From positions 1-24,476 of the forward strand of contig KV424173.1 in assembly GCA_001632435.1 (NCBI GenBank): 24,476 bases of DNA. The letters run 5' to 3'. Below, in pieces: positions 4,222 to 23,304 of the stretch. Source of the DNA: Calocera cornea HHB12733 (Eukaryota > Basidiomycota > Dacrymycetes > Dacrymycetales > Dacrymycetaceae). Under the pieces are notes generated by a model. It was not told the origin of the DNA. It did not search any database and saw only the letters and a program-made list of their open reading frames with translations. A program made the translations under genes and the position numbers. Positions within the stretch are counted from its first letter, which is position 1; every line of letters begins with the position of its first letter.

Positions 4222-7200
4222 ATGGACCGCGACCAGCAGCAGCGGCTCCACCCTCGCTTCACAGGTGCGTACCCGAGCCCCCGCTTCCCCCTCTTCCCTT
4301 CCTTCTCTCTCCATTCGTGAGCCCTCGATGCCTGCGCTTCTCGCTCTTGCTTCTGGCCCACCCCCACCGGCTCGCACCACGCAAGATCGCTTGCCATATC
4401 GGGCCCCACTCGCTCCCGCCACACCCACACCCACAGCCTCACAGCCCTCGCCTCCCTCCTCCCTCCCTCTCAGCACCGGCCCGCCCCCATCCCGCCGCGC
4501 ACTCCCACGGGGGCCCTCTGTCCTTCACCCACCCACCCGAGAGGCGAGAGGCGAGGAGGCGAGGAGGCGAGGGGTGGGCCGATACCCCGCCCGCGTCGCG
4601 TGCGTATGCGAGCGCGGTGCACACCTCCTCATGCGCGCATGCAAGCACACCCCTGCCCATGGCCGCTGTGGTCGCTCGTCGCCTCCCGCCCTGCGCTCAC
4701 GGCCATGTGAATCCACGCCCGGGCGGTGCACGGCATCCCATCCGCCACCCAGCACCGCGCACCGGGCGAGTCATCTTCGCCCCGAGCCCGCATTGGGATG
4801 GTGCTGGTACTGGTCTTCCTGGGACTAGGGCTGCGAGTGGGCGAGCTGGGAAGGAAGGGGGGAAGGCAGTGGAGGGGGATAAAGCAACGGCCGATCGTGC
4901 GTGCTCTCAGACTCCCTTCGCGACTCACGCTCATCCTTTTCAACTGCAGGTGGTCGCCCGCTGGATGCTGGATCGCCGTCGCTGTTCGCTGCTTGCTCGT
5001 TTGCGCTAGTCGCCCCTCTCGTCCCCTTTCCGGCCCAGCCCGCTCGCTGCCTTCCCTTTGCGCTCTTCACCTTTCCGCTTCGAAGGACGCTTCCCTGCGG
5101 CCATCTTTTGCTTTTCTGCGTTCTTCGGCGGACATTCCTTGCATTTACACTCCCAATTCCGAACTCGGACATCCCCATCGTGCCTGTGCCTGTGCCAGTG
5201 CTAAACTAACCCCCGCCCTTCACAGAAGAGGGCCAAGCCCCCTACGCGCCCCAGCCGCAAGGCGCGTTCACCCCGTTCGACCGGGCGAACGCCAACCCAA
5301 ACCCAAATCCAGCGCCGGACGGCTTCCCCCCAACCCCCGCTCTCCCGGTCCCGGTCCCGATCTACGACTCCGCCTCGGCGCTGAGGGGCCCCTGGGCGCC
5401 CGTCCCCGCCCCGCCCTCCACCTCCGCCGGCCCCTCCGCCTCCCCGCTCCGCGCCGTCCCCGGCCAGGTGCGCCTCGCGGACCGCGACCGCGACAGGCAG
5501 AGCCCCGAGGCGCTCCCCGCGCGCGCGCTCGCCAGCCTAGCGCTCGACGAGGACGACTCCTCGGCGGAGGACGAGATGCGGCGGTCCCGCGCCAGCCCTG
5601 GCTCGCGCTCAGAGCGCCAGGTCCCGCCCCGCCGCATGCAGGAGCACCAGCAGCGCCAGCTCCAACGACAACAGTCCACCGCTGCCGCCCTTGCGCAGCC
5701 CACCCAGCTCACATACGGCTCCATCGGCGCTAACACCCCGCAGGACCCGTATGGTCGCTCCCAGGCTGCCGCGGCAGCAGCCGGAGGGTTCGGCATGCCG
5801 ACGGTGTACGGGCAGCAGCCCGCGCCTTTGTCGTACAACCCGCGCGGGTACTCGCCGAGCTACCCGAGCCCCATGCAGGTGATGATGGGCGGCGTGGGCG
5901 TGGGCGTGTCCGTGCCCGGGCAGTACGGCGCGTACGGCGCGTACGGCCAGCCGGAGCTCATGACCTCCCCCGTGGCGTTCGGCAACCCGCCGCCCTTCTC
6001 CTTCCAGCGCATCTCCCCCGACCCGGCGCCGTCCTACCCCCCTCCCCGCGCGCCCGGCGGGCCACGCCCGCCCTACCCACCCAGCTCGTTCCACTTCAAC
6101 TCCCCCCCGCCGTCCTCCCCTCCTCCTCCAGGCGCACGCCCGCTCCAGCCCCAGCAAGCGTACGCCCCGATGGGCTACTCGACCCCCTCCGGCTCGTCGA
6201 TGCAGGGCTACTCGCCGGTGTTCGGCGTACCCACCTCGCCCGTCTTCACCCAGCCCCGATTCGCAAACACGGGCTTCGCACAGCCCTACGGCTCCCAGTC
6301 GCCGGAGGACGCCCTCAGGCAGAGCGGAGGCACGTGGTACTTCATCCCGGACCAGAGCGGGCAGGCGGGCGGGTTCGAGCAGGTCCAGCATCCGCACCAG
6401 CACCAGCACCAGCAAGTCCCGCACCACCAGCACCAGCAGCAGTACGCACAGCCGTACGGGCTCGGCTTCGCACCCCCCCAGGTCGCGCGCAGCGAGAGCG
6501 ACTCGTTCCCGCAGGCACCAATCAGCCCGATCATGTACCCCATCGGCGGCGCTCCACGTCCGCTCCGCGCGTCACACGGGCACGGCCCACGCCCCTCGCT
6601 CTCCCAGTCCTCCTCCACTCCTTCCACCAACGTGCCTGAAACGGGCCCGTCCGAGCCGCACGCGCGCTCCGACCCTGCAACACTGCGGCAGTCCACCTCC
6701 GCGCGAGGCGCGAGCGCAGACGCAGCGGACACGTCCTTCGGCTCGCAGGTCTCGCAGATCCCCTTCCCCTCCCTCTCCTCCCCGGCCCAGCAGAGCAGGC
6801 CGCAGCGCCGCCCCGCGTCGCCCACGCGCAAGGCGTACCACCCCAACCCGCCCGCGAATCGCTCCGAGTGGGTCATGTGGGTCGGAAACGTCCCGCACGA
6901 CGCGACCCACGACGAGCTCTGGCGGTACTTCAACCAGCCGATCCCGCCCCAGCCGTACGGCCCACCCCTGCCAGGCCAGCCGCCCGCGCCGGGCGAAGAT
7001 CAGTCGGGCGGCGTCAGCAGCGTCTTCCTCATCTCCCGCTCCAACTGCGCGTTCGTCAACTTCAACTCGGAGAACCACCTCGAGCGCGCGGTCGCCTTCT
7101 TCAATAACAAGCCGATACGGCCGAACGACCCGCGCTGCCCGAGGCTCGTCTGCCGCGTAAGGAGGAGGGACGACGACCTGCGCGCTGGCGTTGGTGGGCA

Positions 7201-9204
7201 GCGCGGCATGGGCATGCACACGCGCTGGGTGAAAGAGCAGCGGGAGCGCGACCGGGATGAGCAGGAGCAGACGCCTGCTACCGCGGCCGCTCAGGTCGCC
7301 GAGGGGAAGCAGCCCGAGCAGGGCGCAGAGAGTGACCAGCCGCCGGACACGCCCACGCGCCAGAAGACGTTGGGCCACCAGGGCAGCTCGGGCAGCTTTA
7401 CAAGCACCAACTCGAGCTTCTTGCAGAAGTACTTCCCCAAGCGGTACTTTATCCTCAAGTCGCTTACCCAGGTGAGTCCTGCCGATACGGGAGTGATGCA
7501 CGTACTGATTGCTTGGCACAGTTCGATCTCAATCTCAGTGTGGAGCGCGGTCTCTGGGCCACTCAACCGCACAACGAGCCCGTTCTTGATCAGGCTTTCC
7601 GAACGAGCACAGACGTGTACCTCATCTTCGGCGCGAACAAGTCCGGCGAGTTCTACGGATACGCCCGCATGGCTGGGCCCATCCAATACCCAGGCAAGCA
7701 AGAAAAGGCTGAGAACCGCGTCTCCTGGGCATCGCGCACCGAGAGCTCGCATTCATCTAGCAAGAGCATCGAGGGGCCGCTGAACAAGAGACAGGGCCAG
7801 CCGGAGATGATCGCGGAAGACCAGGAGGGCGAGCACCGCGAGGAGAAGCGGGAAAGCCGCGATGAGCCTGCTGAACCTGCGCAAGAAACGGGGGCTGCGG
7901 AGGAGACTGCTGCTGTCCATGAGGAGCACGACGCAGCCGAAGAAGCTCAGGAGCGACCCGAGCCTCCATCATTGGAGGTTTCTGCGCCGGAAGAAGAGGA
8001 TCCGGAACCGAAAGATCATGGTGGTGGGCTCTCTGAGCGACGAGACGACGTTCCAGGCCCAATGGAACTTCCCAGCAGCTTCCTCGATCCTCCCGCCGGC
8101 GGCCCGTCACTTGCGTCCTCACCTCAGCCCATGACACAAGATGAGTCGCAGTCACTAGAGGAGCGAGATCCCAAAGAACAACGTCCTCTTCATCACCCCC
8201 ACATTCGAGGTGGCGTTCGCAGTCAAAGGCAGAGTCCATTGCCCACACCATCGGTGCCTACCGGCGATGACGCACCGAGACTGCCTGTTCCGGAGGAAGT
8301 TGCCTCTGCGCCTGCCGAAGTCGGTCCCGAGCGGAAGAGGTTCACATTCGACGAGCCGGGGCCGCATAACACCATCGACGGTAGCGACCTCCGCTCGTCT
8401 AACAATCGCACTCGCCTCGCTGCTGCGCTCGCCAGCCAGCCTGCCGATCTCGATCTGAGACTGGAGGCGATTCTCTCCGCGGCTGACAAGCAGGCTGAAC
8501 GAGGCGCGTCGAACCAGGAGGGCGAAGTCGACGGTGACGGTGTTATGCGGAGGGATACTGCCCCAACCGAAGCAGAAAAGCTCGAGCATGCGCAGCGGAC
8601 AGCAGCTGCTGAGGAGCTAACGCCGGAAGCAGGCAGACCGCAAATGCAATCATACACAAGCGGTCCCACTGAGACCACCGTAGTCCCGGAGCATGAAGGG
8701 GCCACACAGCCATCCGAGGGAGTACAGTCTCCCGAAGCTGAAGGCGGGAAGCCAACCGGAAAGGAAGAGGAGTCCTGGGGTACCCCTTTCAAGATCGAAT
8801 GGATCAAAGTGGAGCCGCTTCCTTTCTATCGTGCTCGACATCTCCGGAATCCGTGGAACAATGACCGAGAAGTCAAGGTTTCGCGCGATGGCACGGAGAT
8901 CGAGCCTGCTGTGGGCGCTCGTCTCCTGCAAGAGTGGGAACGTCTGGAGGAAGACCCGACACCTGCTCCACCCGCGACCGGCAGAAATCGTGGCTCTCGC
9001 CCACCCTTCCGCACCGGTTACTCTACTCCTTCTGCACAGATTGCTGCGATGCAGAGCCCTCCCGTGCCTCTGTCGCCCACGCAGCTTGATGCGATGCAGA
9101 GTCCAACCGTGCCAATTCCCCCCTACATGCCGCCAAGAGACAATTCCGGCAATGTACCGCAGTGGCTCTTCCAAGGCCGTGGCCCAGCGCCATGGCAGTC
9201 ATAA
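4222..9204 (+). CDS. RRM + YTH domain protein (putative m6A RNA reader)
   Basis: Exons 4222-4264, 5226-7471 and 7522-9204 (introns 961 and 50 nt) join in phase to 1323 residues. Residues about 75-550 are disordered and rich in Gln, Pro, His, Gly and Tyr. An RRM follows (about 560-662; RNP2-like MWVGNVP, RNP1-like NCAFVNF). The YTH domain starts at about 746 (KRYFILKSL...GLWATQP...VYLIFGANKSGEFYGYARM) and is split by about 360 acidic, disordered residues before WGTPFKIEWIKV and HLRNPWNNDREVKVSRDGTE (from about 1182). W775 and W1182 align with methyl-adenine cage positions; the remaining cage residue is uncertain (W832 is a candidate). YTH domains bind N6-methyladenosine in RNA; RRM-YTH fusions occur in fungi. 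Start choice: the 43-nt exon gives a clean phase match (codon G|AA) and CTAAC lies before acceptor 5225. Ends convergent to Sen15. Confidence 0.88.
4265..5225 (+). other. Long first intron of the YTH gene
   Basis: Donor GTGCGT at 4265; acceptor CACAG at 5221-5225 preceded by CTAAC. At 961 nt it is about 19 times longer than the other introns here. It contains an 8-bp tandem repeat (AGGCGAGG, about 4541-4573). Open frames inside it are compositional and do not join the exon phases. Confidence 0.7.
4541..4573 (+). repeat. AGGCGAGG tandem repeat in YTH intron 1
   Basis: About four units of AGGCGAGG/GAGGCGAG in direct succession, within intron 1 of the YTH gene. Confidence 0.7.
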
Positions 9205-9937
9205 TCTCCGTTCACCAATTACCCTCAATCCCCTTATATGCATCATTTGGTCATTCTTGATTCAACTCCCACCAGCCAATCATCCATCGCATCGTTTTCC
9301 AGCACTCACGACCTGGAGGCGATTCCATACCCTGGATGTCGCCCCTCTCACGCCCTTTGACTACGATTTCACACCACCCGCCCTCTCCGATCAACTGTTT
9401 CCACCAATGGCTAGTGTATTCATAAGCCTCCCCTCCTGCATCACCGCCCAGTCGCGTCGACTGGCCCTGTAATGCCTCTTTTGCATTTTTTCCCATCATG
9501 AAGCAACACACGAATCGCATGGCTCCATTTCTTGTCCTTCTAACTTACGGGGTTGCTTGGTAGTCTAGGATGGCTATCCCTGGAAATCGCGCGTTCCGCC
9601 GGATGTCACACCGACCGAAGAATACATGACTCGTCTCTTTAGATGTCGTCACGACAACAAAAGTGACCAGCTGGCGGCGCGATGCGAGATCCAGGTCGAC
9701 TAATGGGTAGGATAGGACGTCACTTGTGCAAGAGACTCGGACTTTCTCCTTCGGACTGTTCCCCTTTGGCGTAAGTGGTAGATGACCAAGTATCCTAATC
9801 GCCGTAGAGTGAATCTGCAGCAATCAATGATGGTTTCGTCTGTCCCCCGTGACCCGGGCCCACTGTTGCTGTCGCAGCCAGCATGAAGTGATCTCGCGGT
9901 TCTCCACCCCCAGGATGAGCTCGAATGTGTCTGAAGA
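9205..9937. other. Convergent 3' intergenic region
   Basis: Between the YTH stop (9204) and the Sen15 stop (9938). It must hold both 3' UTRs. A 92-codon minus-strand frame (9545-9823) has no recognisable feature. No RNA gene or repeat seen. Confidence 0.6.
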
Positions 9938-10505
9938 TTACATTGGTGGCTTAACTATACCCTTCGACAACCTATAGTACACGATGGAAGAATCAGACGA
10001 GACGATGCCCAGATAAACTTCTACCGGTGTAGGAGAGATACTGTCAAACACGGCAGACAGCCTGAAGCTACATGAACAAGCGGTATGGTTTGAAGGTCGA
10101 TCACTTACCAACCGAGAGATAGTGATTCGTTTAGGTCGCAAGGAACCACGAGCTTGGGGAGCTCCTAGACGGCCGTGAGTGGGTGAGTCACGCCTTCAGC
10201 ACCAAGCGGTTCACCTCTTTCGGCTTCACACCTCGAATCACGCCTCGTCCAGACTGCGGTACGTCTATTATTTCGAGATCGGTCCATTGCTGCGCTAGAA
10301 GACAGGAGTCACCACGGTGTAGAAGGAACTATGGAAGTGCATACCATGGAGGATGTCATTGTAGGTTTGATACAGTGATGCCGCCGTTGCGGGATACTTG
10401 GTGAGAAGCGGCTTTACCGCGTCGAACTAGCACATATCTTGAGCTCAGACTGAATATCATGAGAAAGCAAGAGAAACGTACTGCAGGATGGACATTCGCA
10501 TCCAT
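9938..10505 (-). CDS. SEN15: tRNA-splicing endonuclease subunit Sen15
   Basis: Exons on the minus strand, 5' to 3': 10505-10482, 10426-10345, 10294-10215, 10164-10109 and 10061-9938. Introns are 55, 50, 50 and 47 nt, and the phases close to 121 residues. Diagnostic Sen15 segments are YNDILHAQQWTDLEIIDVPQ, KLVVPCDLNESLSLGW and the C-terminal SSDSSIVYYRLSKGIVKPP. Sen15 is a structural subunit of the Sen2/Sen34/Sen54/Sen15 complex that cuts introns from pre-tRNA. The length fits compact fungal homologues. The donor at 10214 (GTGAAC) was preferred to one 12 nt downstream because it gives a 50-nt rather than a 38-nt intron. The mobile element begins 143 bp upstream of this start codon. Confidence 0.9.
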
Positions 10506-10554
10506 AAACCACGACAACAGAAAAAGCTGATCAAAAGGGTTTGGCAATGCCGAA

Positions 10555-10599
10555 GGGCGCGTTCAAGAAGGACCCTTGAGAGAACCCTTGAACGCGCCC
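10555..10599. repeat. 13-bp perfect inverted repeat in the Sen15 5' flank
   Basis: GGGCGCGTTCAAG at 10555-10567 and its exact complement CTTGAACGCGCCC at 10587-10599, with a 19-nt spacer. It lies 50 bp upstream of the Sen15 ATG and could form a cruciform or a hairpin in the 5' UTR. Confidence 0.85.
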
Positions 10600-10642
10600 G
10601 AAATTTCGCCCGATTCGGCGACCACGGCACCAACGATGGGCT

Positions 10643-10648
10643 TCATTC
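10643..10648 (+). repeat. Left target-site duplication TCATTC
   Basis: TCATTC directly abuts the left terminal inverted repeat. The same six bases directly abut the right one at 23299-23304. Confidence 0.85.
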
Positions 10649-10674
10649 TACGGAATGGCAGAGTGGACAGCTCA
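10649..10674 (+). repeat. Left terminal inverted repeat
   Basis: Starts TACGGAATGGCAGAG and continues TGGACAGCTCA. All 26 bases match the reverse complement of 23273-23298. Similarity becomes patchy just inside. Confidence 0.92.
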
Positions 10675-10680
10675 ATTCAG

Positions 10681-10719
10681 GGGTAGGGTCTCTCCCACGG
10701 AGGCAGATCTGGCCTACCC
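10681..10719. repeat. Subterminal inverted repeat, left end
   Basis: GGGTAGG at 10681-10687 pairs with CCTACCC at 10713-10719. GACCCA occurs just inside, and its complement TGGGTC lies near the right end (23224-23229). These could be subterminal integrase contacts; this is inference. Confidence 0.45.
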
Positions 10720-10960
10720 AGACCCAGCATAATATAGCTAGACCCACTATACTTGCCCTCTCGTCAGCAACCCATTCAAGCTCCGCAAAAGCTCCGTACA
10801 CCCCGGCTATCTGCTTGTACCTCCACTCTCAGTCAGCCTTTGTAAGCAGGGATCCTATCAATGGACCCTGGCCCTTCGTACCCCTCGCACTGCGCTCGGT
10901 TTGGGGTCGAGCACACTCGCCCCTCTCCCCTTCCTCCGCCCGTCATCTCCTGCCTCGCAT

Positions 10961-10983
10961 GGGCAGTGCAGTGACATTTCACC
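10961..10983 (+). repeat. Dispersed dyad motif, copy 1
   Basis: GGGCAGTGCAGTGACATTTCACC split as GGGCAGTGC + AGTGACATTTCACC. It lies in the 3' flank of the integrase gene, inside the left end of the element. Confidence 0.85.
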
Positions 10984-11098
10984 ACCCTTTCCCTTCGGCG
11001 ACCGAGTTGGATCGGTTTCGGGTCGCCAAGGGCCAATTGTCTTGTAGAAGAACATGTAATATTACCGTTGTCAGACCTGTTAACCTATCCTAAAATGA

Positions 11099-12944
11099 TT
11101 ACAAGCGGGTTGTTAGGTCTTCTACCTCCCTCATCACCTCGTCGTTGGCTTCCCGGACTTCTTCCCCACAGTCCTCACCCAATCCATCCAAATTGTCGAA
11201 GTACTCCTCGCCCACCTCGGTGCCCTCTACCAAGTCCATGTGCTCGCCGATGATTGTCATCTCGTGTAGGGCTTCAGATGCCAAAGTCTGCGCAAGGTCC
11301 GCGTGTTCTGGGCACCGTAGAAACGCATGCAGTAGTTCGTGATAGACATCCCAGAAGGAATCCAAAGTTACTTCAGGCGCTCCCAGATCTAAAACAGTTA
11401 TTATCAGCCCTTTTCACTTGTGAGTACCCGAATACGGCACCCGACCTCGATAATGACGTTCAATTGCTGTACCGAATGCTGGTGGGACCAGCTGGAATAC
11501 CGGATGGTCTGGCGGCGCATACAGCTCTTCAACGTACTGAATGTCTTCTTCGGTTACCAGCACCTACAAAGACCCTCAATATCATTCCTGCGCATCGATT
11601 GCCACTGGATACCTTGAAGTTCTTGGCGTTATCAAAGCGCTCTGGATGGTGAAGAATATGTTCTGGACGACCGAGGGGAAGCACCTTCGTTTTGTCGCGT
11701 CGAGGCTTGCTCGTGTTGTACATCTTGATGTATTCGTCTAGATTCCTCTTCAGGAAGGGGATTGCTAACCAGCGAAAGACGTTACTGTTGATTTTCGTCA
11801 AAGAGTGCTAAGAACGTGAGAATACCTGGCTTACTATTCCAACGGGTTGTCTCGATCGTACCATCCCCGATGTACACCCATATCAAACAAATCCTCGTAT
11901 GCCCTCGTGAACTCTCGACGCAGCTGGCCCCATCTGATCTCGGGTTTCACATTCGCATGGCCACGCATCCATTTATGCTGCAACTGGCCAATCAGCGTAG
12001 GGTCAAGCAGTTGGCGTAGCATGGTCTGTGCATTGGCGATCCCATTGTTCTCGCCTCCTGGATCGCTCTGAGTAAGCATCGGAATGCCTGCCATGCGTGA
12101 GCGGTGTTTAGCCTGGCCTCCTGTTATCCACGTACCTCCATATGCCCTCGCCATGCGCAAGTAGAAGCTGCACACCAGGCGGGGGTTCTTGTTCGTCCAC
12201 CATGGCTCCACCCACAATAGAGCGCCCGAGAACGTCTCCATTCCTAAGTGCATAAAGAGCCCGAAGCGCTCCCATTTATCGTGCTGGTCCATTGCGATCG
12301 TTGCGAAGACCCCAGGTGTCCAGAACCTCTTTCGCTTCAGGCGCTTCCCAGTCCGCTTCAACACCTCTTCAGGATGATATCTCTGGTTGTACTCCCGCAG
12401 TAGATGGCTGCTAGTAGTTAGCTTCAAACGTGGGACCCTCCAAACGACCTACTCTGATACCAAGATCCGCTTCTGGGTTAACCAATCTTTTTGACGCTTG
12501 ACCCCTGCCTGGGGATACTTGCTGACGAGCTCTGTCATGTACGGCCGTATGGACTCCAGAGTGTGAGCCTGCTGTCTCACACTGGCCATCTGGAGCTGCT
12601 TTCGACGTCGATAAACAGTGCGTTTACTAGTCGTATCAATTAGAACAGTCCGTGCATCTCGTAAGTCAAATTGCGCACCTAAGACCCCAACCCTTCTCCG
12701 CTGCTCCCACGTCCTGCTTGATTGCCTCTGCAATTTCGGCATCTCCTAGTCCCTGCGACCAGTATTCTTCGATTCGGGGCAATAACTCCTCATCTGGGAC
12801 TAGCCGCACACAACATCAGTCAGGCTTTCAGCGGCCCTGCTCTTTCAACGCACCCGTTGGCCGATGCTGATTGGGTTGGTGCTCCCAACTATTTCGTTGA
12901 CTTCTGGATGGGCTCTTCGTCTTCATCAAGTCGAGGGAGGCCAT
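11099..12944 (-). CDS. Retroviral-type DDE integrase (rve family) of the element
   Basis: Seven exons on the minus strand, 5' to 3': 12944-12854, 12799-12679, 12626-12453, 12407-11835, 11784-11613, 11563-11446 and 11388-11099. Phases close to 512 residues. The N-terminal part has a helix-turn-helix-like stretch (LLPRIEEYWSQGLGDAEIAE; then SKRTVYRRRKQLQM). The catalytic core shows D169 in MDQHDKW, D244 in TQSDPGGENNG and E285 in VKPEIRW, giving a D-D(40)E spacing, followed by a conserved NPLE..VFRWLAIPFL segment. The C-terminal region is acidic (residues about 400-512). This resembles the integrase-core proteins found in fungi and animals. Role: cutting and joining of element ends. All three catalytic residues are present and no stop or frameshift is seen, so it is probably functional. 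Acceptor 12408 (CAG) was chosen over 12411 (TAG); this changes one residue. Confidence 0.85.
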
Positions 12945-12977
12945 TCCAGACTATCCGGTGTCACTGAGCAAGATGCA

Positions 12978-12994
12978 GGTAACCACCGGTTACC
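12978..12994. repeat. GGTAACC dyad upstream of integrase
   Basis: Seven-base arms GGTAACC and GGTTACC with a 3-nt spacer, 34 bp upstream of the integrase ATG. Operator-like in position; function unknown. Confidence 0.6.
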
Positions 12995-13605
12995 CTGGCG
13001 TTCTAGATGAAATGCATAGCCTTGGGAAGGTCCGTATATCTGATTGGTCCCGCTGATAAGACGGGGTTCCCTTTTGCGGTACCATACGCATAGCGCCTGT
13101 CCTTTCCGGTGATTTGGGCGTTTACATTGGGGCCAGCCTCGATTTGGGGTTAACAGTTTTCACGGCTCCAACTTTGGGTAGCAACGCCTCGTGATCGCCC
13201 GCCTCAAATCGAACGGGCTTCGGGCCCTAATATATGCCCATCTGGTTCTTTCTCCCCAACGGTATCCTTCTCAGCTATGATTGGTGCGGCAGAGGCATTG
13301 AAAAGCCAAGCCCTTCGAAAATAGAACACGGTTTTCAGACATGATGGAGATCCGAGCGCAGCTCCATGGCCGGCTGTGCAACAACGTTTACGTGTCGCAT
13401 CAAGCTGTCAGTTCCGAACACGGCGTATCGAGCCAATAACCAGCTTTCTTATTCAGCCCCGTTTTCCGTACCCTCGGCCCGCTGTTTCACTGCACTATTT
13501 TCTGCTTGCTCGGCGATGCACCGCATGCGAGAGACCTTCTTCGATCAGCAGAACGGATATCCTCTGCGGTAGACCTAAAGATGCTACTCTCGGGTTGCCA
13601 GGGCA

Positions 13606-13627
13606 GGCAGCCCAGTGACATTTCACC
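13606..13627 (+). repeat. Dispersed dyad motif, copy 2
   Basis: GGCAGCCC + AGTGACATTTCACC, 50 bp upstream of the TATA-like box and 122 bp upstream of the alpha-kinase start codon. Confidence 0.85.
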
Positions 13628-13676
13628 ACTCGGCCGAAACGATGAAGTTTTCAGTCCTTCTGCGCTTCATGCGGGG

Positions 13677-13684
13677 TATAAGTA
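13677..13684 (+). promoter_or_regulatory. TATA-like box of the alpha-kinase gene
   Basis: TATAAGTA within the palindromic GGGGTATAAGTACCCC, 73 bp before ATG 13750, in the normal range for a fungal TATA promoter. Confidence 0.5.
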
Positions 13685-13749
13685 CCCCAGCTCGAATCGT
13701 ATCGAGGGAAAAGCTGTTTTTCGTCCTCTGTACTTCTTCAGCCGCTGCC

Positions 13750-16338
13750 ATGGCATCCTTCTCCGCCTGTGACGAAGTCTTCGTTAACCCTGCAGCGATG
13801 ACTTTCATTGCGAAGCGACCCGAGCCCTGTGAACGATTCGAGCTTTGCCGCACTCACCCTCACTATGTCATTCCGGTTGGAGACTTCTACCAGAGAATGA
13901 AGGATGTCGATGGGCACACCCTGTTGACTGTTTGCTCTCCGTGCTGGGAGCGGGCAGACTCCAAAAGGGGCTCACAACGGGTCACCGAGCGTCGTACTGC
14001 CCGAGACATACCCAATCCCTTGACGATTCGCGATATGAATCACGCAGCAAAGCTTCAAAGTAAGGGAATCTCTGTTCTTCTATTATCACTGTCACCTGAC
14101 ATAGTGCTTTCCAGTCGGCGGCTCGCGTGTGCAAGCCATTGGACCTCATTCATTGTCCACGAGTATGCCCCTACACGCTCGTAAGGAGCTGCATGCCGCT
14201 CCGTCCGGTGGCCGTGGCTACACCGGTGCCCATAAGCACTACCAGTCAGAGTACCTGTCGCGGGCTCAGGAAGCTTACGCTCGGGTGGTTCGAGAGACGA
14301 TCTGGGTCAATTTTGCGGTCCATTACCTCGAAGAGGGCAAAACAGGATCAAAGTTGTTCATGGTGAGTCGCCTTTTATTGATATCTCGTGTTGGGTACTG
14401 AACTGTGGGTGCATTAGAACGTGGAAGATCGAGAAGAAATGTCTGCCAAGATCACCGGCCCCGAGCTCAAGTCGACAGCCCTGTCCCTTCTGCAGCGGTC
14501 CTTGATGGAATGCACAGGCAGCTTTGTGTTCCATCTAGACAACTTCTGGCTACGTGGCAAGGATAACACGAACTACGAGCGCTTCCCTCCATCTCAGCCG
14601 CTGTTTTATCATCTATGCTTTCGCATTAAAGGCAAGAGCGGGGCGGCTGTATTCCAAGCGGGCAAGTCTTTCCATGTCCGTCTGATAATGCAACCGGAGG
14701 TGTACGAGCAAGTGCAGCTCTACATGGAGCGAGCCAACCAGGGTCGGTCCCACCCAACAACGAGCTTTATCTCGGCTGCCATCTCTAAGACCATAACACC
14801 GCGGAAACACAGCCGATCTGGTCCATCGGATACAGCTCTTCCAGGGGTAAGCCTTGTTTCGGGTGTAAGGAGCGTAACTGACAAGCAATCAGTCTGCTAG
14901 TCCCAGGGCTAGTCCGCGTGCCAAGCGAGTGCACACTGCATCTCAGCTTGATCACAATGCTCTTGATGGAGCTCCTGCATCTGTAAATGGCCATTTGACC
15001 GGACAGTCCGGTGACATTTCACCTGGGATTGGCCAACCGTCGGCCCTCACCCTCACTTTGCTGTCACGCACGATTCGGGCGACTGACATGGATGCTGCCC
15101 ATGAAGATCTGCCAATACCGAATACGGCCGACATCCGGGCGGCACTGTTGGACAGCGCCGCTACGATTGCAGGCTCAAAGCATCCCTTCGGTGAGGCTGC
15201 CCTGATAGCGCATCGACTTGGCATCTGCTGACTGCAACACCCAGGCTGTTTTCGCGATATGGGTCGTTTCATACCCGCCCCGAGCCTCGACTTCAACACA
15301 CTCATTCGTACTCGCTACAAGTTCTCGATCGACTGGCTGACCGAAGGTTGTACTGCCCAGATTATTGTCGATGAGAGAGCCTCGTCTTGTCCCGGACCAC
15401 CAGGCTCGTTTAAGACAACCCACCCGGGAAAATTCGTTCTCTACGAAAGCAGCATGAACAGCGACCACGATCAGACAACGGCCTTCAAGGTCAACCACCG
15501 AGAAAAAGTTGTCTTCAAGCGGTGGTATGTCCCTCAAGCGGCTCAAGCAGCACCCAACTCTCCCGAACAGCCAGACGTCTCTCGATTTGGGGCTTTTGTC
15601 CGCCTCGGAAAGCCTCAGGAGGAGAAGATGTTGGCCGGAGAAGTCACCTGCTCGGTCTGGGCCACTGCGCTCACTCTGCTGGTGTACCGTGCCATTCAGG
15701 ATGCCAGATCCAAGGCTGATCCCAGTGATCTCGTATGTCGGACGACCTTCCCTGTGGTCCGATTCGTGCGATGCGGACTATTCCGTGTTCAACTGCCGGC
15801 CCCACCCAAGGATACGAAAAGGCCCTCGAGGCACTTGACACCGTATCTTGTTGAAGAGCTCATCGATACCAAGGGCGATTCCTCCAACTTCGTCAAGTAT
15901 ATCCATAATGGCAGCGCTGTTCCTTGTATCACCACGGGAGCCGAGGGCAACATCGCGTCGTTCCTTTCATTTTGTCAGCATCTCCAGTACGTGTCCACTG
16001 GAAAGCAGGTTTATGTGAGCGATTTCCAAGGTGAGCTGAGCATCATTGTCATCCGGGCAGCCATGCTCATTGTCATCGTACCTTCAGGATGTAACGGTAT
16101 CCTTACCGATCCTCAGATCATGACGACACCGTAAGCCGTGATTGCTTATTATGGATAAGCTGAGCCTTACTGACCCCTTCGTAACAGCGAGTTAGCATCT
16201 AAAGTCTTTGGTGACGGCAATGTTGGAAGAGCTTTTGCGGCTTTCGAAGCTCAGCACATCTGCACTGCGTATTGCGTCGCTTACGGCTTGGAGAACTTCC
16301 TCATTGTCCCGTCTAATGATGATCAGCCATCTGGCTGA
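13750..16338 (+). CDS. Alpha-type protein kinase carried by the element
   Basis: Seven exons: 13750-14059, 14115-14362, 14418-14846, 14893-15190, 15245-16030, 16088-16130 and 16188-16338. Phases close to 754 residues. An N-terminal cysteine module (C27, C33, C62, C65, with H36/H38 nearby) may bind zinc. Residues about 430-740 carry the alpha-kinase domain: YLVEELI (629), FVKYIHNG (644), VSDFQG (686-691) with D688, LTDPQI (696-701), FGDGNVGRAF (712) and the zinc-type end H728-C730-C734 before GL. Alpha-kinases phosphorylate Ser/Thr, often in helical contexts, and have expanded in some fungi. Start choice: CCATGG context, TATA-like box 73 bp upstream. The dyad motif at 15001 is read within exon 4 as GQSGDIS. 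A perfect hairpin overlaps the stop codon. Whether it serves the element or is captured host cargo is unknown. Confidence 0.87.
14986..15011. repeat. Nested palindromes beside motif copy 3
   Basis: AAATGGCCATTT (14986-14997) is a perfect palindrome. It is followed by CCGGAC-A-GTCCGG (14999-15011), which merges into the dyad motif. All of this lies inside kinase exon 4. Confidence 0.6.
15001..15023 (+). repeat. Dispersed dyad motif, copy 3 (coding)
   Basis: GGACAGTCC + GGTGACATTTCACC inside exon 4 of the alpha-kinase gene, translated in frame as GQSGDISP. Confidence 0.85.
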
Positions 16339-16343
16339 TCATC
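16318..16343. repeat. Hairpin overlapping the kinase stop codon
   Basis: GATGATCAGCC (16318-16328), loop ATCT, GGCTGATCATC (16333-16343): a perfect 11-bp stem and 4-nt loop enclosing TGA 16336-16338. Confidence 0.85.
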
Positions 16344-16775
16344 CCGTGGTGGGTCAAGTCCTTCATTTCATTGTGCATACGAAAGACTTTCAATGGGCTC
16401 ACATCTTCGGACAATAGCCTAGTCGAGCCATTTTCATACTATGTTATCACTTTCCATCCTGTCTTAAGCTAATGATGATATTTCTTGTCCATGTATATCA
16501 TGCTCGATTCGGGGTTTACCGCAGCGGAATGCCAGTTCTTGAGGCACCTCAAGCGTAGTGGGCCAATGCGTACCCCAACTGCCTCAAATCGAGGATACCA
16601 AGCCGTGCATTGGTGAAATGTCACTGGCCTGCTCAAGGTGCAGGCCGTGCATGCCTGGTGAAATGTCACTGGCCTGCTCAGGAAGCAGGCCGTGCATGCC
16701 TGGTGAAATGTCACTGGTTTGCCCGACCATCGTAGTTGCATTGCAGAAGTATGGATAGCTAAGACAAGAAGGAGA
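16339..16775. other. Convergent intergenic region with tandem motif array
   Basis: Between the 3' ends of the alpha-kinase gene and the 995-aa gene. Apart from the hairpin end and the 45-bp array, nothing is recognised. Frames reading through the array are artefacts of its periodicity. Confidence 0.6.
16612..16724 (-). repeat. 45-bp tandem array holding dyad motif copies 4-6
   Basis: Two full 45-bp units (16612-16656 and 16657-16701) differ at only a few bases; a third partial unit runs to 16724. Each starts GGTGAAATGTCACTGG, which is the dyad motif in reverse orientation (16612-16634, 16657-16679, 16702-16724). The units also contain a short GCCTGC...GCAGGC hairpin and GTGCATGCCT. Confidence 0.9.
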
Positions 16776-19700
16776 CTACGCGAGCGGGGCAGCCTTCTGT
16801 CGTCCCTTTCGATCCAGCTTCTCCAAATGTTCGATAGTCCCAACATCAAGCCATTCCGAATCGTCAATCTCCACCCACTCCTCTGGAGGAGCGGTATCAT
16901 TGTCAGCGTTGCCCTCGTACCACTTGTCAGCCAGAGCACGATCAACATCGTCCATTGTAAACTGCAGCGTGCGAATATTGGGTTTGAGGGACTTCTCATC
17001 CCAGTCCTTAATGGAAACTGACATTCCAGTCAGTAAATGATGGTAATGTCAACGTAAGGACAAACTTTTCTTCTTTCCTGGCTTGCGCCAGAGGCATGAT
17101 ACTCCTCTGCGTCTGCACTCAAAGCAACCGGTACCTTCGATCCGTCGGCACGAGCGCCGAAGACCAGTTCTCGAATGCAGAGACCGGATACGACAGCGAA
17201 GACACATTGCCTCGCAAAAGCAGAGCTGAGAGAATGGACAAATGTCAGTGCTGCATCAGACGTAGTGAGTAAATGACCATACAACAACCGGATGCTCGAA
17301 GACCTTCTTCATTCTAACCACGCGTGCCCTACGCGCGACTCGTAGCGGGGGAATGTATTCGATTTCGAGTAACGGTGACGGGGCTCGGAGGGTGTCGGGC
17401 AGGATGTTGCCAAAAGCCTTCCTCCTAGACTTGCGTTTGTACTTGGCGTGTACACGGGCGATTCGCCGATCGTGCTTCTTGAGAATATGCTGGGTATGTC
17501 TAATGATGCCCTCGTAGACTTCGTCCGCTGTCACAGGTCGCCCGCCTCCTTCCATGTTCGCGAGATCTTCATCGGTAAAGAGCTTGGGAGGTGGTGCAAC
17601 GTTGTTCAACTCGAGAACCAGTTGGTTAAGGAGCGCAACAGGAAATCCCATCATCGGTATGGGCCAGGATTCTAGGTCGTACGTCAAGTGCCACTTTTGT
17701 GTGTAGCGCATGAGCTCAAATAAGCATGTTGCGAAGAAGTGCGTTGGGGGCGACTGCCAAAGGCTCCGATGGTTCATGGTATCGCGCTGACAATGAACAA
17801 TCAGAATTGTGCATATGAAGTCAGTACAGTGTGACTAACCCAATGTGTATTGGTCAATGTCATGAAGGCGGAAACTCGAATAAGAGGTGCATTGGGAAAG
17901 CTCGGCCAGGGGCGTGATACGTTGATGATGGCGCGGACCGCCGTTCTCGAATACAGGTCGATGGTGTGCCGGGCATCCACCGAGCCGACTTCCGAAGTCT
18001 CCACTGCCCGCAGAATGCCCAAGAGAGACCAATCCTGTCCGAACGCAAGATCGACGTCTTGGATGTGGTGAAGGTTGGCTTCAACTCCAAACTCGTGATG
18101 CCAAGTCCAGATGTTGATGAGGTTGGCTGCCAGCGGGCCCCGCATTTGCAACCAGGGCAGTGCCTTGCCAGCTTTTATCAGCCCAAAGTATGCAGACTGC
18201 TCGCCATTGAGCCAGATGTACATAGGATGAGTAGAGTTATGAGGCGCACCAGGTATTGAGATCGCCTCTGCACTGCTTCGATAGCATCTGGCAAATTGTC
18301 CTGGCCGAAGGTGGGAATAACAGGTTGCTGCTCCAGGTCATCGATCAACTCCTGTGCTGACTTGCATAGCAATATTCGCTGTGCCGGACTGAGAAATTCA
18401 TTGGTAATCTTGAAGTCGTCGTCCTCTGACTCTTCTTCCTGCGCAGGCTTCGGTTCGCGATCGTTACCAGCACCTCCACCGTCTCTCCTTTTTCTCGTCA
18501 AATGAGCCGCATGCTGCCGTACGGTGCGGATGGCGACGTTGATCCTTTCATTGTTGAAGGGAAGATCGTGCCGGTGCCAGTGGATCAGTAACTTCTGCAG
18601 AGGATGTAAGACTGACATCGGAAATGGCAAGGTATAGACATACGTTCATGTTCTCGAGCTTCCTTTCCCACTCTGGAAACTCCGGTTCGTCGACACTGCC
18701 CGGGACGTTGTGTGCAAGGTCCAGTAGAGTATCCTCAGCGCGCTGCCTTTCGTTTGTGGCTCTGATGATTGCCTGGCTGTAGGTTGTGCTGTTCGATGCC
18801 TCGCTATCTGGCTTGCCACCGGAACGTTGGCTGTCTTCGAGAATCGGTTCGAGGCTGGGTGAATGTTCCTGCAAGACTTGGATTAGCATGGGGCTATTGT
18901 GCTGGGATACCGGGCGTACCATCGTAGCATCCTGAACAACTTCGTCCTCTTTGTCCTCTTCTTCTCTATCCGACACCGTCTCAGACAGCGGGTCGTCGCC
19001 AGCCATGCCCACATCCTCCTCCCCGACATCCCCCTGCCAACTCCCCACATCCTCAGCTGCAGCAATGGATGTCTCAGCGTCGGTGTCTCCCAAATCCGCC
19101 AACTCCTCTTCGATATCGTTGTTATCAGTGTCCCTGTACTCGATGGACGTGTCGGAGTGGATGGATGAGCCGTTATCGCTCCCCGGAGACCACTCGTCGG
19201 AATCAGTATCGTCACCTGCATCTGATTCGGACAGAGCCATTCCCGGACTGGACGGCTTGCTGATATGCTCGTCGCTGTCTTGTTCGTTTGAGTTAAGGTC
19301 ATGTAATTCTTCATCATGGGTGTCGAGTTCCGGTTCAAACGCAGGTGAATGCTCAGCATCATCTTCAGCAAGGTCCATCGACTGGCTTGGATCTTCAGCA
19401 TGGTGGAAGGATGGCAAGCCGGCAGCTGGGGCGACCTGCTTATCACGACGATCCCACTCCTCGAGCCGCTTCCTGTAACGCTCGAGCCGCCGTCGGTAGC
19501 CAGGTGTGTCGGTAACCTTGGGAGAACGGGGCAAACGCAGGGGCGGAGTCTCCAGCCGATAGAGGGTAGGAGAAGGTGACGGAGTATGCAACGGAGAGCA
19601 GACTGCTTCCTGGCTGTCGGGAACGATAGTAGATTGTACCGATGAGCGACAGGCCGGCTTTTCGTCCAAGGAGCGACGAGGGGTGCGGGGAGGCGGCGAA

Positions 19701-20023
19701 GGAGAAGGGGATGGTGAGGAGGAGGGTCGAAGCGACGGAGGACGATGTAGTGGTGAGAGGGTTGGTGCACGCCGTACCTGTCCACCAGCAAAGGAGGGCA
19801 TATACAGTGTGATTGGAGTTGCAACCTCCCCCTCTGTGGGAAAGCGTGCATCTCCGAACTGACTGATCGGTGGTGGTTCTGGGGATGTCGAAGTGGATCT
19901 GGCGGGATGACGAGCGGGACGACGAGCTCGCCGGGGTGGCGTGGATGGACTCCCGACTGGAGCCAACCATTGCTTGAACAGCGGCTTCTTGCCTTTAGCT
20001 TTCTTCTCGATTGTGCGCCCCAT
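16776..20023 (-). CDS. 995-aa element protein: disordered acidic N-terminal half, C-terminal Cys cluster
   Basis: Six exons on the minus strand, 5' to 3': 20023-18644, 18594-18250, 18196-17840, 17786-17283, 17225-17066 and 17017-16776. Introns are 48-57 nt and all phases close. The function is not recognised. Residues 1-20 are basic. Residues about 20-180 are Ser/Pro/Arg-rich. A charged helix lies around GYRRRLERYRKRLEEWDRR. Residues about 200-400 are strongly acidic and disordered. Residues about 460-860 look folded and carry a basic patch (KYKRKSRRK). Residues 863-915 hold eight Cys, including CLRC (870-873) and CFEC (896-899) with C888 and C906, which resembles a zinc-binding module. The C-terminus is acidic. 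Exon 5 is also open in another frame, but only this one joins both neighbours in phase. A DNA- or RNA-binding role is conceivable; this is inference. Confidence 0.75.
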
Positions 20024-20290
20024 TTGCTAGTAGGTCGGTTCGGGGATGGCTTCAACAGTGAAGAGTCGAGCAGGAGGACGAGGAATGAGACGAGGATGAT
20101 GGTGAGCAAGAGAGTCGCGCGGTCTCAAACCGAGCTTGTGACAGCTGAGTGTTACATGCGTGACTGCATCCCAGCGGATCCATCCTAAGCTATGAGGTGC
20201 ATACTGTCAAACGAGTGTATTAAAGATTGAACGGCCTTAAAGGCCTAGATACACGGCGACGCAGACACTGTTGTATAGAAGCTGGGTTCT

Positions 20291-21200
20291 TCAGAGAGGA
20301 GAGAGCAGCGGGGCTGGGGCCTTCTTGTCTTTGGGCGGCCATTCGGCAGGATCCGAGTTGGAGAGGGGGGTGTATGCTGCGTTTGGATGCACGTCGAAGA
20401 AGTTGAACCATGTCTTCAGGACATCGATGACCTTGACTGCTTCATCGTAATACGCCAGACCAACACTTGGAGCAGACTTCTTCAGGGCCTGAGCAGCCTT
20501 GCGTCCCTCTTCGAATCTGCGCTCGAAGTAACCGTCCCCGCTACTACCTGCACGTCTGTTGTCCTGATACTGGAGAGCAGTGGTTTCAGAAGCGAGAGTG
20601 AGGTTGCCACGTTGATAAACAAGAGGAGCGATGGGTTCGTAAGCGGGGGGAGCGTCGTAAGAGGGCGCAGAGGGGAGCTGAAGATTGTTTGAGACGGGCA
20701 GAGAGGCTTGATGCGCGCTGTCGCCTGATGACGCGTGGGACACCGCAATGTGGCTAGCGATATTGGGATTGGCCTCCATGAGAAGGAACAGGTTGATAAT
20801 CCCATTAGCCTCGACACTGCCCTCCCCAATGCTGAAAGGCGGCGCTGGATTCTTGATAACAGGTATGGCTCCTGTACGACGAGAGTTGTTGATCGAGCTC
20901 GGTTTCCGGTTGGAGGCTGGAGCAGGATTGCCAACACCGGAGCCAGGATCGGGTGCCGGGCCACCGGGGTGGATGCTCTCGCCACCCCGCAGGCGGGCAG
21001 CGACAGAGCGAGGGGCGCACGAAGGGACCTCTCTGTCCACCTTCGCACTTGAAATGTCACTGGACTGCCCGTCACAAATGGAGGGATTGTCTAAACGAAG
21101 GTGAGTGTGATGCGGAGTAAGCGAGAGGTTAGGACGCACCAGGGGCCATCGCTCCTGCAGCTCTTCCGACTGTGGGCATGCTGGTAGGATTGTGGTTCAT
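20291..21200 (-). CDS. 286-aa element protein with PPAY motif
   Basis: Two exons on the minus strand: 21200-21140 (starting MNHNPTSMPTVGRAAGAMAP) and 21090-20291, with a 49-nt intron and matched phase. The function is not recognised. Most of the first 160 residues are Pro/Ser/Gly-rich. SYDAPPAYEP (about 164-173) contains a PPxY motif, which in known proteins binds WW domains of Nedd4/Rsp5-type ubiquitin ligases and also serves as a late domain in viruses. The C-terminal 80 residues look folded (FERRFEEGRKAAQALKK...VIDVLKTWFNFF). The dyad motif at 21048-21070 is translated in frame as GQSSDIS, like the copy in the kinase. It shares a promoter region with the plus-strand 275-aa gene and lies 267 bp downstream of the 995-aa gene start, same strand. 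Confidence 0.72.
21048..21070 (-). repeat. Dispersed dyad motif, copy 7 (coding)
   Basis: On the minus strand GGGCAGTCC + AGTGACATTTCAAG, with the last bases diverged. It lies inside exon 2 of the 286-aa gene and reads GQSSDIS. Confidence 0.8.
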
Positions 21201-21848
21201 ATTGCGGGTGCAGAACACCTTGCAGCTAACAGAGAGGGTGAGCTAAGTTGAGCAACTGTCCTCAACGGTTGGAATCACTCGAGACTTGGACAGGCGAGAG
21301 GGGTGGCTAGGTCGTTTGCAGTGAGTATTTGAGAAGCAGGTTGAGACGGTGATGGCCGTTGAAGGTTGAGGAGAGAGGGGTATCTGGATCCGTTGCCAGC
21401 AGTGCTGAACGCTGTGCAAGCCACGTGAAGCTAAGCGCCCAACCTCGTGTCAAAAGGTTGTTACGTCATCAGGGTCTAGTCGGTTTTTTACAGCATTGAT
21501 ATCAACTTCGGACGTCCAGAACGCATCTTCATTGCGAATTTACGGATATTACTGTCATCATGCTACAATGCAAGCAGTCCAGCGACATTTCACCAGGCAA
21601 TTAATGGCCCGTTGCGCTATACGACTCACGAAACTGACGAGTTGCAGACGGGGATATGGGCCCTGGTCCCCGGTCCGAACACGTGTTCGAATAGGGGAAG
21701 AAGCAATTGGTAGCGTGGGCCGATTTCCGAACCCTGCCATGAGGCTGTCCCGCGCCAGCAACGCATGCACGCCGCTCTCTTCCTTTCGTCTAACCCTCTC
21801 CTCACCATCAATAAACTTACCCCTTCGCTCTGCATCAAGACGACTGAT
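21201..21848. promoter_or_regulatory. Divergent promoter region of the 286-aa and 275-aa genes
   Basis: About 650 bp between divergent starts. It contains one dyad motif copy (21573-21595), a TTACGTCAT (about 21460) resembling an ATF/CREB-type site, and a pyrimidine-rich stretch (about 21770-21800) before the plus-strand start. Confidence 0.55.
21573..21595 (+). repeat. Dispersed dyad motif, copy 8
   Basis: GCAGTCC + AGCGACATTTCACC in the divergent promoter; one arm base is changed (GCGA for GTGA). Confidence 0.8.
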
Positions 21849-22874
21849 ATGGACATGGACGACGCTGTCTCTCTTCTGGGCAATGATAACGACAATGAGC
21901 TCGATGACGGCGACAACCTGCTGATGGGGATGAGCAACGCGCTCGTTGGCTCGTACAAGGCGGCAGACATGGGCGAAAGGACGTCTCCGTCGCGTTCGTC
22001 GACCGGCAGCTTCGCCTCGGTCGACATCACAGGCAGCTCCAGCGCTGCGAAGAACACGACGCCCGCCGTTTCGCGCATCACGGCAAGCGTCTTGGCTCCT
22101 GGCCTGGCGCATACATCCATCGCTGCGGCCGAGGAGAAGGTCGAGCTGCACCCTCGCCTGATCTCTAACAAGGAGCTCGGCGTGCTCAGCGTCTTGCGCG
22201 CTGAGGGTAGCCATTTCACCGCGGCTGGTCGTGCTGCGATGGCGAGTCGCAGCTTGGAGGCGATGGAAGAGGGGATGGAGCCCGAGGTGAGCTCTTTCTC
22301 TCATATCGGGACCTGAAATGTCTCTGGACTGCCTGTCGACGGCGAACAGACGGTGACGGTGAAATGTCACCGGGCTGCCTGTCGACAGCGCAGGGAAGAT
22401 GGCATTTCGGCGATCTCGTCGTTTGTCTGAGCAGGCTGACAGCCCTGGACAGATCAATGAAGGGGACGACGACAAGAAGCTCGGCAAGAACGCTGCCGCC
22501 GGCTATGCCGCGGCGAAGAAGATCGGTGGGGGAATCGCGGCGGCGTTGGGCTTCGCGCAGGGTATGGTGGAGCGCGAGGAGAAAGCGGAGAAGAAGGAGA
22601 AGAGGACGGCGTGGCAGAAGTTCTGCCTTGGGATGAAGATCATCTTCGGATGGTTCCTGTTGGCGGTGACGACCGTTCTCTCGGTCTTGGCGAGCGCGGT
22701 GAAGGATAACCCGCTCAAGACGGCGAGCCTCGTCAGTGAGTATCGCTATCTTGCCTCTTTGAACTGAATCTGACGCGGCATACAGTTATTTGGTGCACGA
22801 TGCTTGCTCGCGGCGTGAGCTTCTGGGACATCGTGACCCAGAGCATCGACTCTTACAAGGCCAAGAAAGAGTAG
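21849..22874 (+). CDS. 275-aa putative membrane protein of the element
   Basis: Exons 21849-22286, 22435-22735 and 22786-22874 (introns 148 and 50 nt) close in phase. The function is not recognised. The N-terminus is acidic (DMDDAVSLLGNDNDNELDDGD), then Ser/Thr-rich. A predicted helical segment follows (about 100-145). Next come a Gly/Ala-rich stretch (GYAAAKKIGGGIAAALGF) and a lysine/glutamate-rich linker. One good transmembrane helix spans about 213-234 (MKIIFGWFLLAVTTVLSVLA), and a second hydrophobic patch near 247-260 precedes the end SYKAKKE. A Met at 21765 is also in frame but lies in pyrimidine-rich leader-like sequence. Intron 1 is three times the usual length because it contains two dyad motif copies. 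An alternative acceptor at 22455 would also keep phase. Confidence 0.7.
22311..22333 (-). repeat. Dispersed dyad motif, copy 9 (intronic)
   Basis: On the minus strand GGCAGTCC + AGAGACATTTCAGG. It lies inside intron 1 of the 275-aa gene; both outer arm bases are diverged. Confidence 0.75.
22358..22380 (-). repeat. Dispersed dyad motif, copy 10 (intronic)
   Basis: On the minus strand AGGCAGCCC + GGTGACATTTCACC. With copy 9 it forms a diverged 46-bp tandem pair; both are followed by CTGTCGAC. Confidence 0.85.
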
Positions 22875-23272
22875 AGTCGCCCGTAGATACTGCCCTGTAC
22901 GCTGCTCTACCAGAGCGAAATGACATTGTTTTCAAAAGCGATTTCTATGGGCAGTCCGGTGACATTTCACCTCCAGTGCGATGTCATTAGAACATTAGTT
23001 CGATGGTATTATTACTGCTAGGAAGCGGGCCGGGTCTGTCGTGCACGACCCCAAACCGAGTGACGCCTCGAAGGCCAACAATAACTTACCGCTTATAAGT
23101 AGTGTTACATAATCGTCATAACTAACCGAGCCCGGTTGAATGGAATCAATATCACTTCAGTCGCCGCTCCAAATAAGATGACTAATTACTTGGGAAAAGG
23201 GAAAGTACAGGACAGACCACGATTGGGTCTGAGGAGACCACCACGATGCTGTGCCGCCTGAAACGCGTAAAC
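22875..23272. other. Right subterminal non-coding region
   Basis: From the stop of the 275-aa gene to the right TIR. It holds motif copy 11 and a TGGGTC matching left-end subterminal GACCCA. No gene is supported. Confidence 0.6.
22949..22971 (+). repeat. Dispersed dyad motif, copy 11
   Basis: GGGCAGTCC + GGTGACATTTCACC, 75 bp after the stop codon of the 275-aa gene; this copy is identical to the consensus. Confidence 0.88.
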
Positions 23273-23298
23273 TGAGCTGTCCACTCTGCCATTCCGTA
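23273..23298 (-). repeat. Right terminal inverted repeat
   Basis: Exact reverse complement of the left TIR over 26 bases; the plus strand ends GCCATTCCGTA. Confidence 0.92.
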
Positions 23299-23304
23299 TC
23301 ATTC
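23299..23304 (+). repeat. Right target-site duplication TCATTC
   Basis: Directly follows the right TIR and matches 10643-10648 exactly. Confidence 0.85.

Follow-up and report, generated by a model that had tools for sequence, protein, structure and literature searches.

Contig KV424173.1 of the basidiomycete Calocera cornea HHB12733 (assembly GCA_001632435.1) carries an element of 12,650 bp that is bounded by terminal inverted repeats (TIRs) and target site duplications (TSDs, not counted in its length) and has five genes, all with introns. Judged by its sequence features, the element is very probably an autonomous-looking IS3EU DNA transposon in a five-gene form, both in identity and in mobility. 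A 24-bp motif is dispersed along it in eleven copies, and related elements of the same genome carry motifs of their own at corresponding positions. These private motifs look like a copy-specific self-recognition system. In its full form the proposal, for which belief and doubt are evenly balanced, is that fungal IS3EU elements have a copy-specific code: an element-encoded DNA-binding protein and its 9–11 dispersed 24-bp sites would change together at fixed positions, so that each related element in one genome would have a private cis/trans system, used either to evade silencing or to mobilise itself selectively. By the window we mean the whole stretch analysed, the 24,476 nucleotides that make up this contig (C260 in our numbering), and the genome searched is the C. 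cornea assembly of 32.1 Mb in 302 contigs.

Element boundaries and related elements

The two ends of the element are exact inverted 26-bp copies of TACGGAATGGCAGAGTGGACAGCTCA, at 10649..10674 on the plus strand, where the repeat begins with TACGG, and at 23273..23298 on the minus strand. Each is directly abutted on the outside by a copy of the TSD, TCATTC (10643..10648 and 23299..23304). In 24.5 kb of random sequence approximately 7e-8 perfect inverted pairs of 26 bp would be expected by chance, even before a TSD is required, and the inverted arms reach 36 nt at 89% complementarity. The fraction of G and C is 0.54 in the element, 0.63 in the left flank and 0.53 in the right flank. An earlier note on this DNA, made from the sequence alone, had described these TIRs and TSDs, placed five spliced genes and eleven dyad motifs between them, and taken the whole for a mobile element. 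Both descriptions are confirmed, with five multi-exon gene models and eleven dyad copies inside the TIRs, and the mobile nature of the element is supported by other TIR/TSD pairs in the genome and by the recurrence of the five-gene block.

The genes encode, from left to right, a DDE transposase (A, 11099..12926, minus strand), an alpha-kinase (B, 13750..16338, plus strand), a protein with a Zn2Cys6-like cysteine cluster (C, 16776..20023, minus strand), a protein with a PPxY motif (D, 20291..21200, minus strand) and a membrane protein (E, 21849..22874, plus strand). In protein searches of the genome, C260, C8 and C78 show all five genes arranged alike, A-B-C-D-E, with neither order nor orientation changed; C196 carries B-C-D-E, and its A is located on C48. 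A variant TIR pattern occurs at 16 places in the genome, against none for the reversed control, and reveals paired TIRs away from the window. The TIRs differ between elements. The C8 element (9514-22278) has identical 26-mers at both ends and flanks sharing CAAGGGG. The ends at C196 36400 and C48 2851 have identical TIRs and the same TSD, CGACCA, outside both, which indicates one element split over two contigs. Two more elements have paired ends, one of 29.8 kb on C2 (157359-187147, TSD CTCGGC), with an integrase/kinase pair in its middle and a remainder that may represent large cargo or nested insertions, and one of 2.66 kb on C121 (5176-7834, TSD TGGAAG), which has no integrase match and is therefore probably non-autonomous. 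The search of the same genome for further TIR-bounded copies, which the earlier note had proposed, was successful: the C2, C121 and split C196/C48 elements have TSDs of their own, and C8 has its seven shared bases.

That the five genes are ordinary host genes lying between two repeats is a reading to which we give practically no credence. All five are intron-bearing and free of internal stops, which agrees with it, but the same block is found on other contigs of the genome with matched TIRs and TSDs, and we reject the reading on this recurrence. In the mechanism proposed here, A would excise the element and reinsert it by way of its TIRs with a 6-bp stagger.

Other loci are incomplete. On C54 a left end is followed by A and an incomplete B, cut off where the contig stops. 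The same E-side element end (46 bases compared) is present at C97:119085 and C108:3805, near two contig ends; the flanks differ, so these are probably two very similar copies. Matches to D and E are paired at six places (C260, C8, C78, C196, C97 and C108). Single TIR ends occur at C50 and C7, of which the C7 end is doubtful; an end at C50:179113 is near-identical to that of the C121 element. Strong integrase loci number at least 22, with an alpha-kinase match within 2.5 kb at 18 and a head-to-head arrangement, as for A and B in the window, at 17; this count leaves out seven weak integrase matches (C64, C126, C130, C160, C20, C226 and C23), and weak matches to E on C261 and to C on C238 are likewise left out of the counts. 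IS3EU-type integrase/alpha-kinase pairs are common in C. cornea, with the kinase as their regular component.

Private motifs and their positions

Each of the three complete five-gene elements has one top motif, counted as a 14-mer with at most two mismatches on both strands: 11 copies in the window, nine in C8 and 11 in C78, against 3–5 copies in three first-order simulations per element. Extended and oriented, the motifs read approximately GGTGAAATGTCACTGG.CTGCCCG in the window,.GTAAAATGTCACTCCAAAGCCCG in C8 and GGTAAAAGGTGACTGGGACATCCG in C78. Genome-wide matches with up to three mismatches lie inside the owning element in 11 of 12 cases for the window motif, 8 of 8 for C8 and 10 of 11 for C78; the corresponding reversed patterns have 5, 1 and 0 matches. 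The twelfth match of the window motif, with three mismatches, is on another contig.

The window copies, seen as the dyad pattern CAGTCCRGTGACATTTCACC, are spread over the entire element. Three are on the plus strand at 10964..10983, 13608..13627 (upstream of B) and 15004..15023 (the coding linker of B). Next, on the minus strand, come three copies in a tandem array with a 45-bp unit, in the gap that separates the 3' ends of genes B and C (16612..16631, 16657..16676 and 16702..16721) and one in coding exon 2 of D (21048..21067). Between D and E a copy lies on the plus strand (21575..21594), intron 1 of E contains two on the minus strand (22312..22331 and 22358..22377), and the last is 3' of E on the plus strand (22952..22971).

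The split C196/C48 element, which has been read in part, has its own motif, GAAGTAGTATCTTGGTGT; nine copies form an array with a unit of approximately 30 bp between B and C, as in the window, and two more lie beside A. The C54 fragment has three 24-mer copies within 0–2 bases of GTAAAATGTCATCGTGTCGTTCGA. The skeleton TRAAAKGTSAC is common to the window, C8, C78 and C54 motifs, with a single exception to it in C54, and the remaining bases differ. Among the loci scanned, matches to all 11 positions of the skeleton are confined to the C260, C8 and C78 stretches, the one at C8 21874 being no motif copy. Matches to 10 of the 11 also occur in C48, C295, C127 (three), C5, C111 and C85. A second motif, CTCGATTTGGGGT, is less strongly enriched than the private one and is present in all four sequences scanned. 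In the window it lies at 10895..10907 on the plus strand with one mismatch, and further copies with up to two mismatches start at 13138, 15581, 16503, 16581 and 23048. It may be what the conserved part of A recognises.

The motifs keep their places while their sequences change. By gene context, seven motif positions correspond in the window, C8 and C78, and the orientation agrees at every one of them. One is upstream of B, another within its linker, and a third separates the 3' ends of B and C. In D the motif stands close to where the main exon starts, and the next position falls between D and E. The last two are the first gap in the E matches, which is intron 1 in the window, and the stretch 3' of E. 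For a quantitative test the window sites were mapped to C8 and C78 by BLAST anchors, with the 11 sites collapsed to 8, and partners were sought among all nine C8 and all 11 C78 sites. For 7 of 8 window sites, each of the two elements has a partner no more than 120 bp away, in the same orientation for 6 of those 7, and none of 20,000 random placements did as well. With the limit set at 60 bp, 5 of 8 sites are paired in C8 (a figure reached in 2 of 20,000 trials) and in C78 6 of 8 (0 of 20,000). Pairing is poor for the site upstream of B, a consequence of length differences in that intergenic stretch.

Divergence was measured over eight sites per element (8 of 11 in the window, 8 of 9 in C8 and 8 of 11 in C78). 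Copies within an element differ at 3.2–3.9 of 24 bases, a likeness inflated by the choice of sites through similarity to a 14-base seed, which favours this figure but cannot account for the result on positions. The neighbouring 24 bases, before as well as after the copies, differ at 16.3–18.5, near the chance value of 18, and motifs at the same position in different elements differ by 9.2 bases. Two of the motif sites are located in coding sequence, in B and D. The peptide encoded at the motif in D shifts together with the DNA motif (GQSSDIS, SGLWSDIL and SGCSSHLL), which points to selection acting on the DNA.

Motif copies might instead be functionless and homogenised within each element by neutral gene conversion or short tandem duplication, an explanation that we consider improbable. 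It would fit the local tandem arrays (45 bp three times in the window, about 30 bp nine times in C196), but the flanking bases differ at near-chance levels, so that any conversion would need to end abruptly at 24 bp. Nor does it sit well with the preservation of motif positions between elements, or with copies in the coding sequence of B and D, where the D peptide follows the motif. We propose that an element-encoded protein binds the private sites over the full length of the element and that protein and sites have evolved together, which would explain their privacy, conserved placement, sharp borders and concerted change. The most likely role of such binding, by analogy with VANC in VANDAL transposons, would be to keep the chromatin of the element open, a role we rate slightly below an even chance; as the next candidate, binding may make transposition copy-specific, which seems rather unlikely.

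The element products A, B and C, judged by their sequences, each have a possible DNA-binding region. If the transposase A, or its variable residues 81-160, were the reader, the private motifs would be transposase binding sites that serve only the mobilisation of the element itself and not that of its cousins. Several observations agree with this: loci at which only A and B are found carry private repeats (nine copies on C142, five dyads on C5), A residues 81-160 are 34–62% identical between elements against 74–81% for residues 24-80, and the TIRs differ between elements too. The sites, however, are distributed along all 12.6 kb, coding sequence and introns included, and not only near the ends, and form tandem arrays in mid-element between the 3' ends of B and C. 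We take this alternative to be rather unlikely.

Private repeats may extend to other integrase loci. Ten further integrase stretches of 3.3–4.0 kb were compared with their shuffles, and C18 and C43 stand above them; the top word of C43 is a low-complexity repeat, and a separate dyad is seen there. Even the C260, C8 and C78 elements would show no more than two or three sites over such a length, and the lack of a signal therefore means little. Local tandem repeats were also noticed in C275 and C295 in a de novo scan, without a shuffle comparison.

A number of findings weigh against a self-reading IS3EU element. Among the same ten stretches, the repeats of C10, C155 (two), C65, C25 and C13 only equal the shuffles, C26 ties with its highest shuffle and C127 falls below its own. 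The 14-mer count of the C54 fragment (3) is not above simulation. The site next to A in the window is oriented unlike those in C8 and C78, and nothing pairs with the weak copies C8:3907 and C78:7701 (element coordinates). The private repeats on C142 and C5, where no C, D or E match is present on the contigs, argue against C as the sole reader and make A or B equally possible. As to mobility, the flanks of C8 share seven bases and not six, the left end of C78 is damaged and has no TSD (its right end is intact), and neither an empty site nor a recent jump of the window copy is seen in the one genome. The placement in IS3EU draws on a Pfam domain and published features, and the TET/JBP search gives no Tet_JBP match in C260.

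Gene products and neighbouring sequence

Gene models were built by joining exons at GT/GC..AG borders, and the five models contain zero internal stops. Gene A has eight exons and 490 aa by model; the predicted transposase is identical to CALCODRAFT_504712 of C. cornea HHB12733 (P0001, 496 aa), which matches PF24764, 'Integrase core domain', in a Pfam scan (E 7.2e-9). The candidate catalytic residues are D169, D228 and E269 in P0001 numbering, conserved at 90% or more in 56 aligned sequences. The AlphaFold model of A (pLDDT 88) has a helical N-terminus and six matches in the PDB at E <= 0.001 (1.9e-4 to 9.7e-4), namely IstA complexes, a chain of the Tn7 TnsABCD transpososome and PFV integrase, all with low whole-chain TM-scores of 0.16–0.36; a sequence search of solved structures with A gives no match at E <= 0.01. 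The A proteins of C260 and C54 are 64% identical, and their codon positions 1, 2 and 3 are identical at 0.73, 0.78 and 0.42, which indicates constraint at the protein level.

Among relatives of A, the C. cornea protein P0002 lacks the candidate catalytic glutamate at the E269 position, so some integrase copies of this type are probably inactive. The integrases of P0006 (on an 8,042-base scaffold) and C54 are nearly identical, at a tree distance below 0.01, which suggests recent copying.

Gene B has seven exons and encodes an alpha-kinase of 754 aa (PF02816, E 8.9e-14) with a conserved CX5C..CX2C cysteine stretch at its N-terminus. A protein-database search with B yields no match among the 7,997 best word-sharing candidates scored, and is uninformative.

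Gene C encodes 994 aa by model, with an acidic, low-complexity N-terminal half and the Zn2Cys6-like cluster near the C-terminus. Scoring of 7,989 candidates gives it at least 11 database relatives, ten of them from C. cornea (its own protein included) and one from C. viscosa; PF26625, a 'putative Zn2Cys6 domain', is listed for 9 of the 11, and a Pfam scan of three relatives (P0100-P0102) returns no family. The C. viscosa protein, P0101, is 62% identical to C and looks by eye in the alignment like a fusion model of D and C, and D and C therefore appear to be linked in C. viscosa too. The predicted structure of one C relative is too poor for use (pLDDT 46). Seven further copies of C (C64, C93, C111, C67, C85, C132 and C109), 45–56% identical in their larger matches, have no A, B, D or E matches beside them and may be host relatives or captured genes.

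Gene D (286 aa) has the PPxY motif as PPAY, and its relatives in C8 and C78 have PPPY. Gene E (275 aa) has a strongly hydrophobic stretch at approximately residues 209-235. Neither D nor E has a Pfam family over the cut-off.

Outside the element, the window contains a reading frame with an RNA-binding YTH domain at 7336-9204, about 1.4 kb to the left of the element, and an RRM match within 5210-7783. The contig starts with a tandem 14-bp repeat, GGCACCGCAAGACG (1-70), and a string having GGCACCGCAA in common with it occurs twice near C25:221 kb.

Comparison with known systems

The earlier note had held that the gene set matches no transposon family, a view that does not stand. Fungal IS3EU elements, in the parts of their description available to us (PMC12730594), have a 6-bp TSD, TAYGG..CCRTA termini, and a transposase with an alpha-kinase on the opposite strand and a TET/JBP gene between the two. 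The window element has in common with them the TACGG..CCGTA ends, the 6-bp TSD, the DDE transposase and the opposite alpha-kinase. Its A carries PF24764 and the D169/D228/E269 residues, with a fold resembling IstA and retroviral integrase at low TM-scores, and the TSDs are 6 bp long in the window (TCATTC) and in relatives (CGACCA, CTCGGC and TGGAAG). Its TIRs, perfect over 26 bp and reaching 36 nt at 89%, compare with TIRs of more than 30 bp reported for rust IS3EU families. Where TET-bearing IS3EU elements have the TET/JBP gene between transposase and kinase, the window element instead has C, D and E along with the private motifs; these three genes do not appear in the available parts of the IS3EU description. 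A TET-type gene in the element is rejected on the C260 result given above; two sub-threshold Tet_JBP matches lie away from it, at C49:9728-10072 and C100:113531-113803.

IS3EU/GingerRoot elements, as far as the available portion of PMC10045372 goes, have TA..TA termini, usually a 6-bp TSD and an integrase-like transposase without an HHCC domain. The termini, the TSD and the integrase-like transposase lacking HHCC agree with the window element, and multigene content is not mentioned in that portion. Ginger1 and Ginger2 are described there with a TSD of 4–5 bp, and Ginger1 with an HHCC domain, in contrast to the 6-bp TSD and helical A N-terminus found here; membership in these groups is rejected on the TSD.

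Polinton/Maverick elements resemble the window element in their 6-bp TSD, integrase-like enzyme and TIRs (in part after the same portion of PMC10045372, in part as general background). The element could be a remnant of a Polinton-like or other virus, with the integrase, the late-domain-like PPxY protein and the membrane protein as virion functions. Besides the TSD and the integrase-like fold, the retention of PPxY as PPAY or PPPY in D and the hydrophobic stretch of E would suit such an origin. No match to a polymerase (a protein-primed DNA polymerase included), capsid, ATPase or protease was found among the frames and proteins tested against Pfam, a set that does not extend to every short frame. 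Six tested proteins have no match in PHROGs, none of 35 pattern matches in viral contigs is related to A by tblastn, and the features of the element are those of IS3EU transposons. On the missing virion and replication matches among the frames tested and the lack of an A relative in viral contigs we reject both a Polinton/Maverick identity and a viral remnant, the latter being very improbable.

The five-gene form, with C, D and E conserved in order, seems to be new for IS3EU, and the private, position-conserved motifs also seem to be new; they are the part that would surprise a specialist. A literature search by title and abstract start gives no account of the C-D-E genes or of such motifs among the matches listed, which does not establish their absence from print. 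If the motifs are read by an element protein, a single genome offers at least four related elements with different solutions, three of them aligned site by site. With four differing elements in one genome, the evolution of DNA recognition and the arms race between transposons and silencing would become directly testable in fungi.

VANDAL transposons of Arabidopsis, whose transposase is of MULE type, provide the closest parallel to the private motifs. Their VANC protein binds to short private motifs that often stand in tandem, and it causes methylation to be lost, according to the part of PMC5735166 available to us. The likeness lies in a short family-private motif, repeated in non-coding parts, often in tandem, and evolving with a protein of the element. 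The VANDAL motif is 9 bp long and dense, as that source has it, whereas the motif described here is 24 bp long, occurs in 9–11 copies at conserved positions, is partly coding, and is known from sequence alone. If the copy-specific code is real, it differs between all fully examined elements and would be an independent counterpart of plant VANC.

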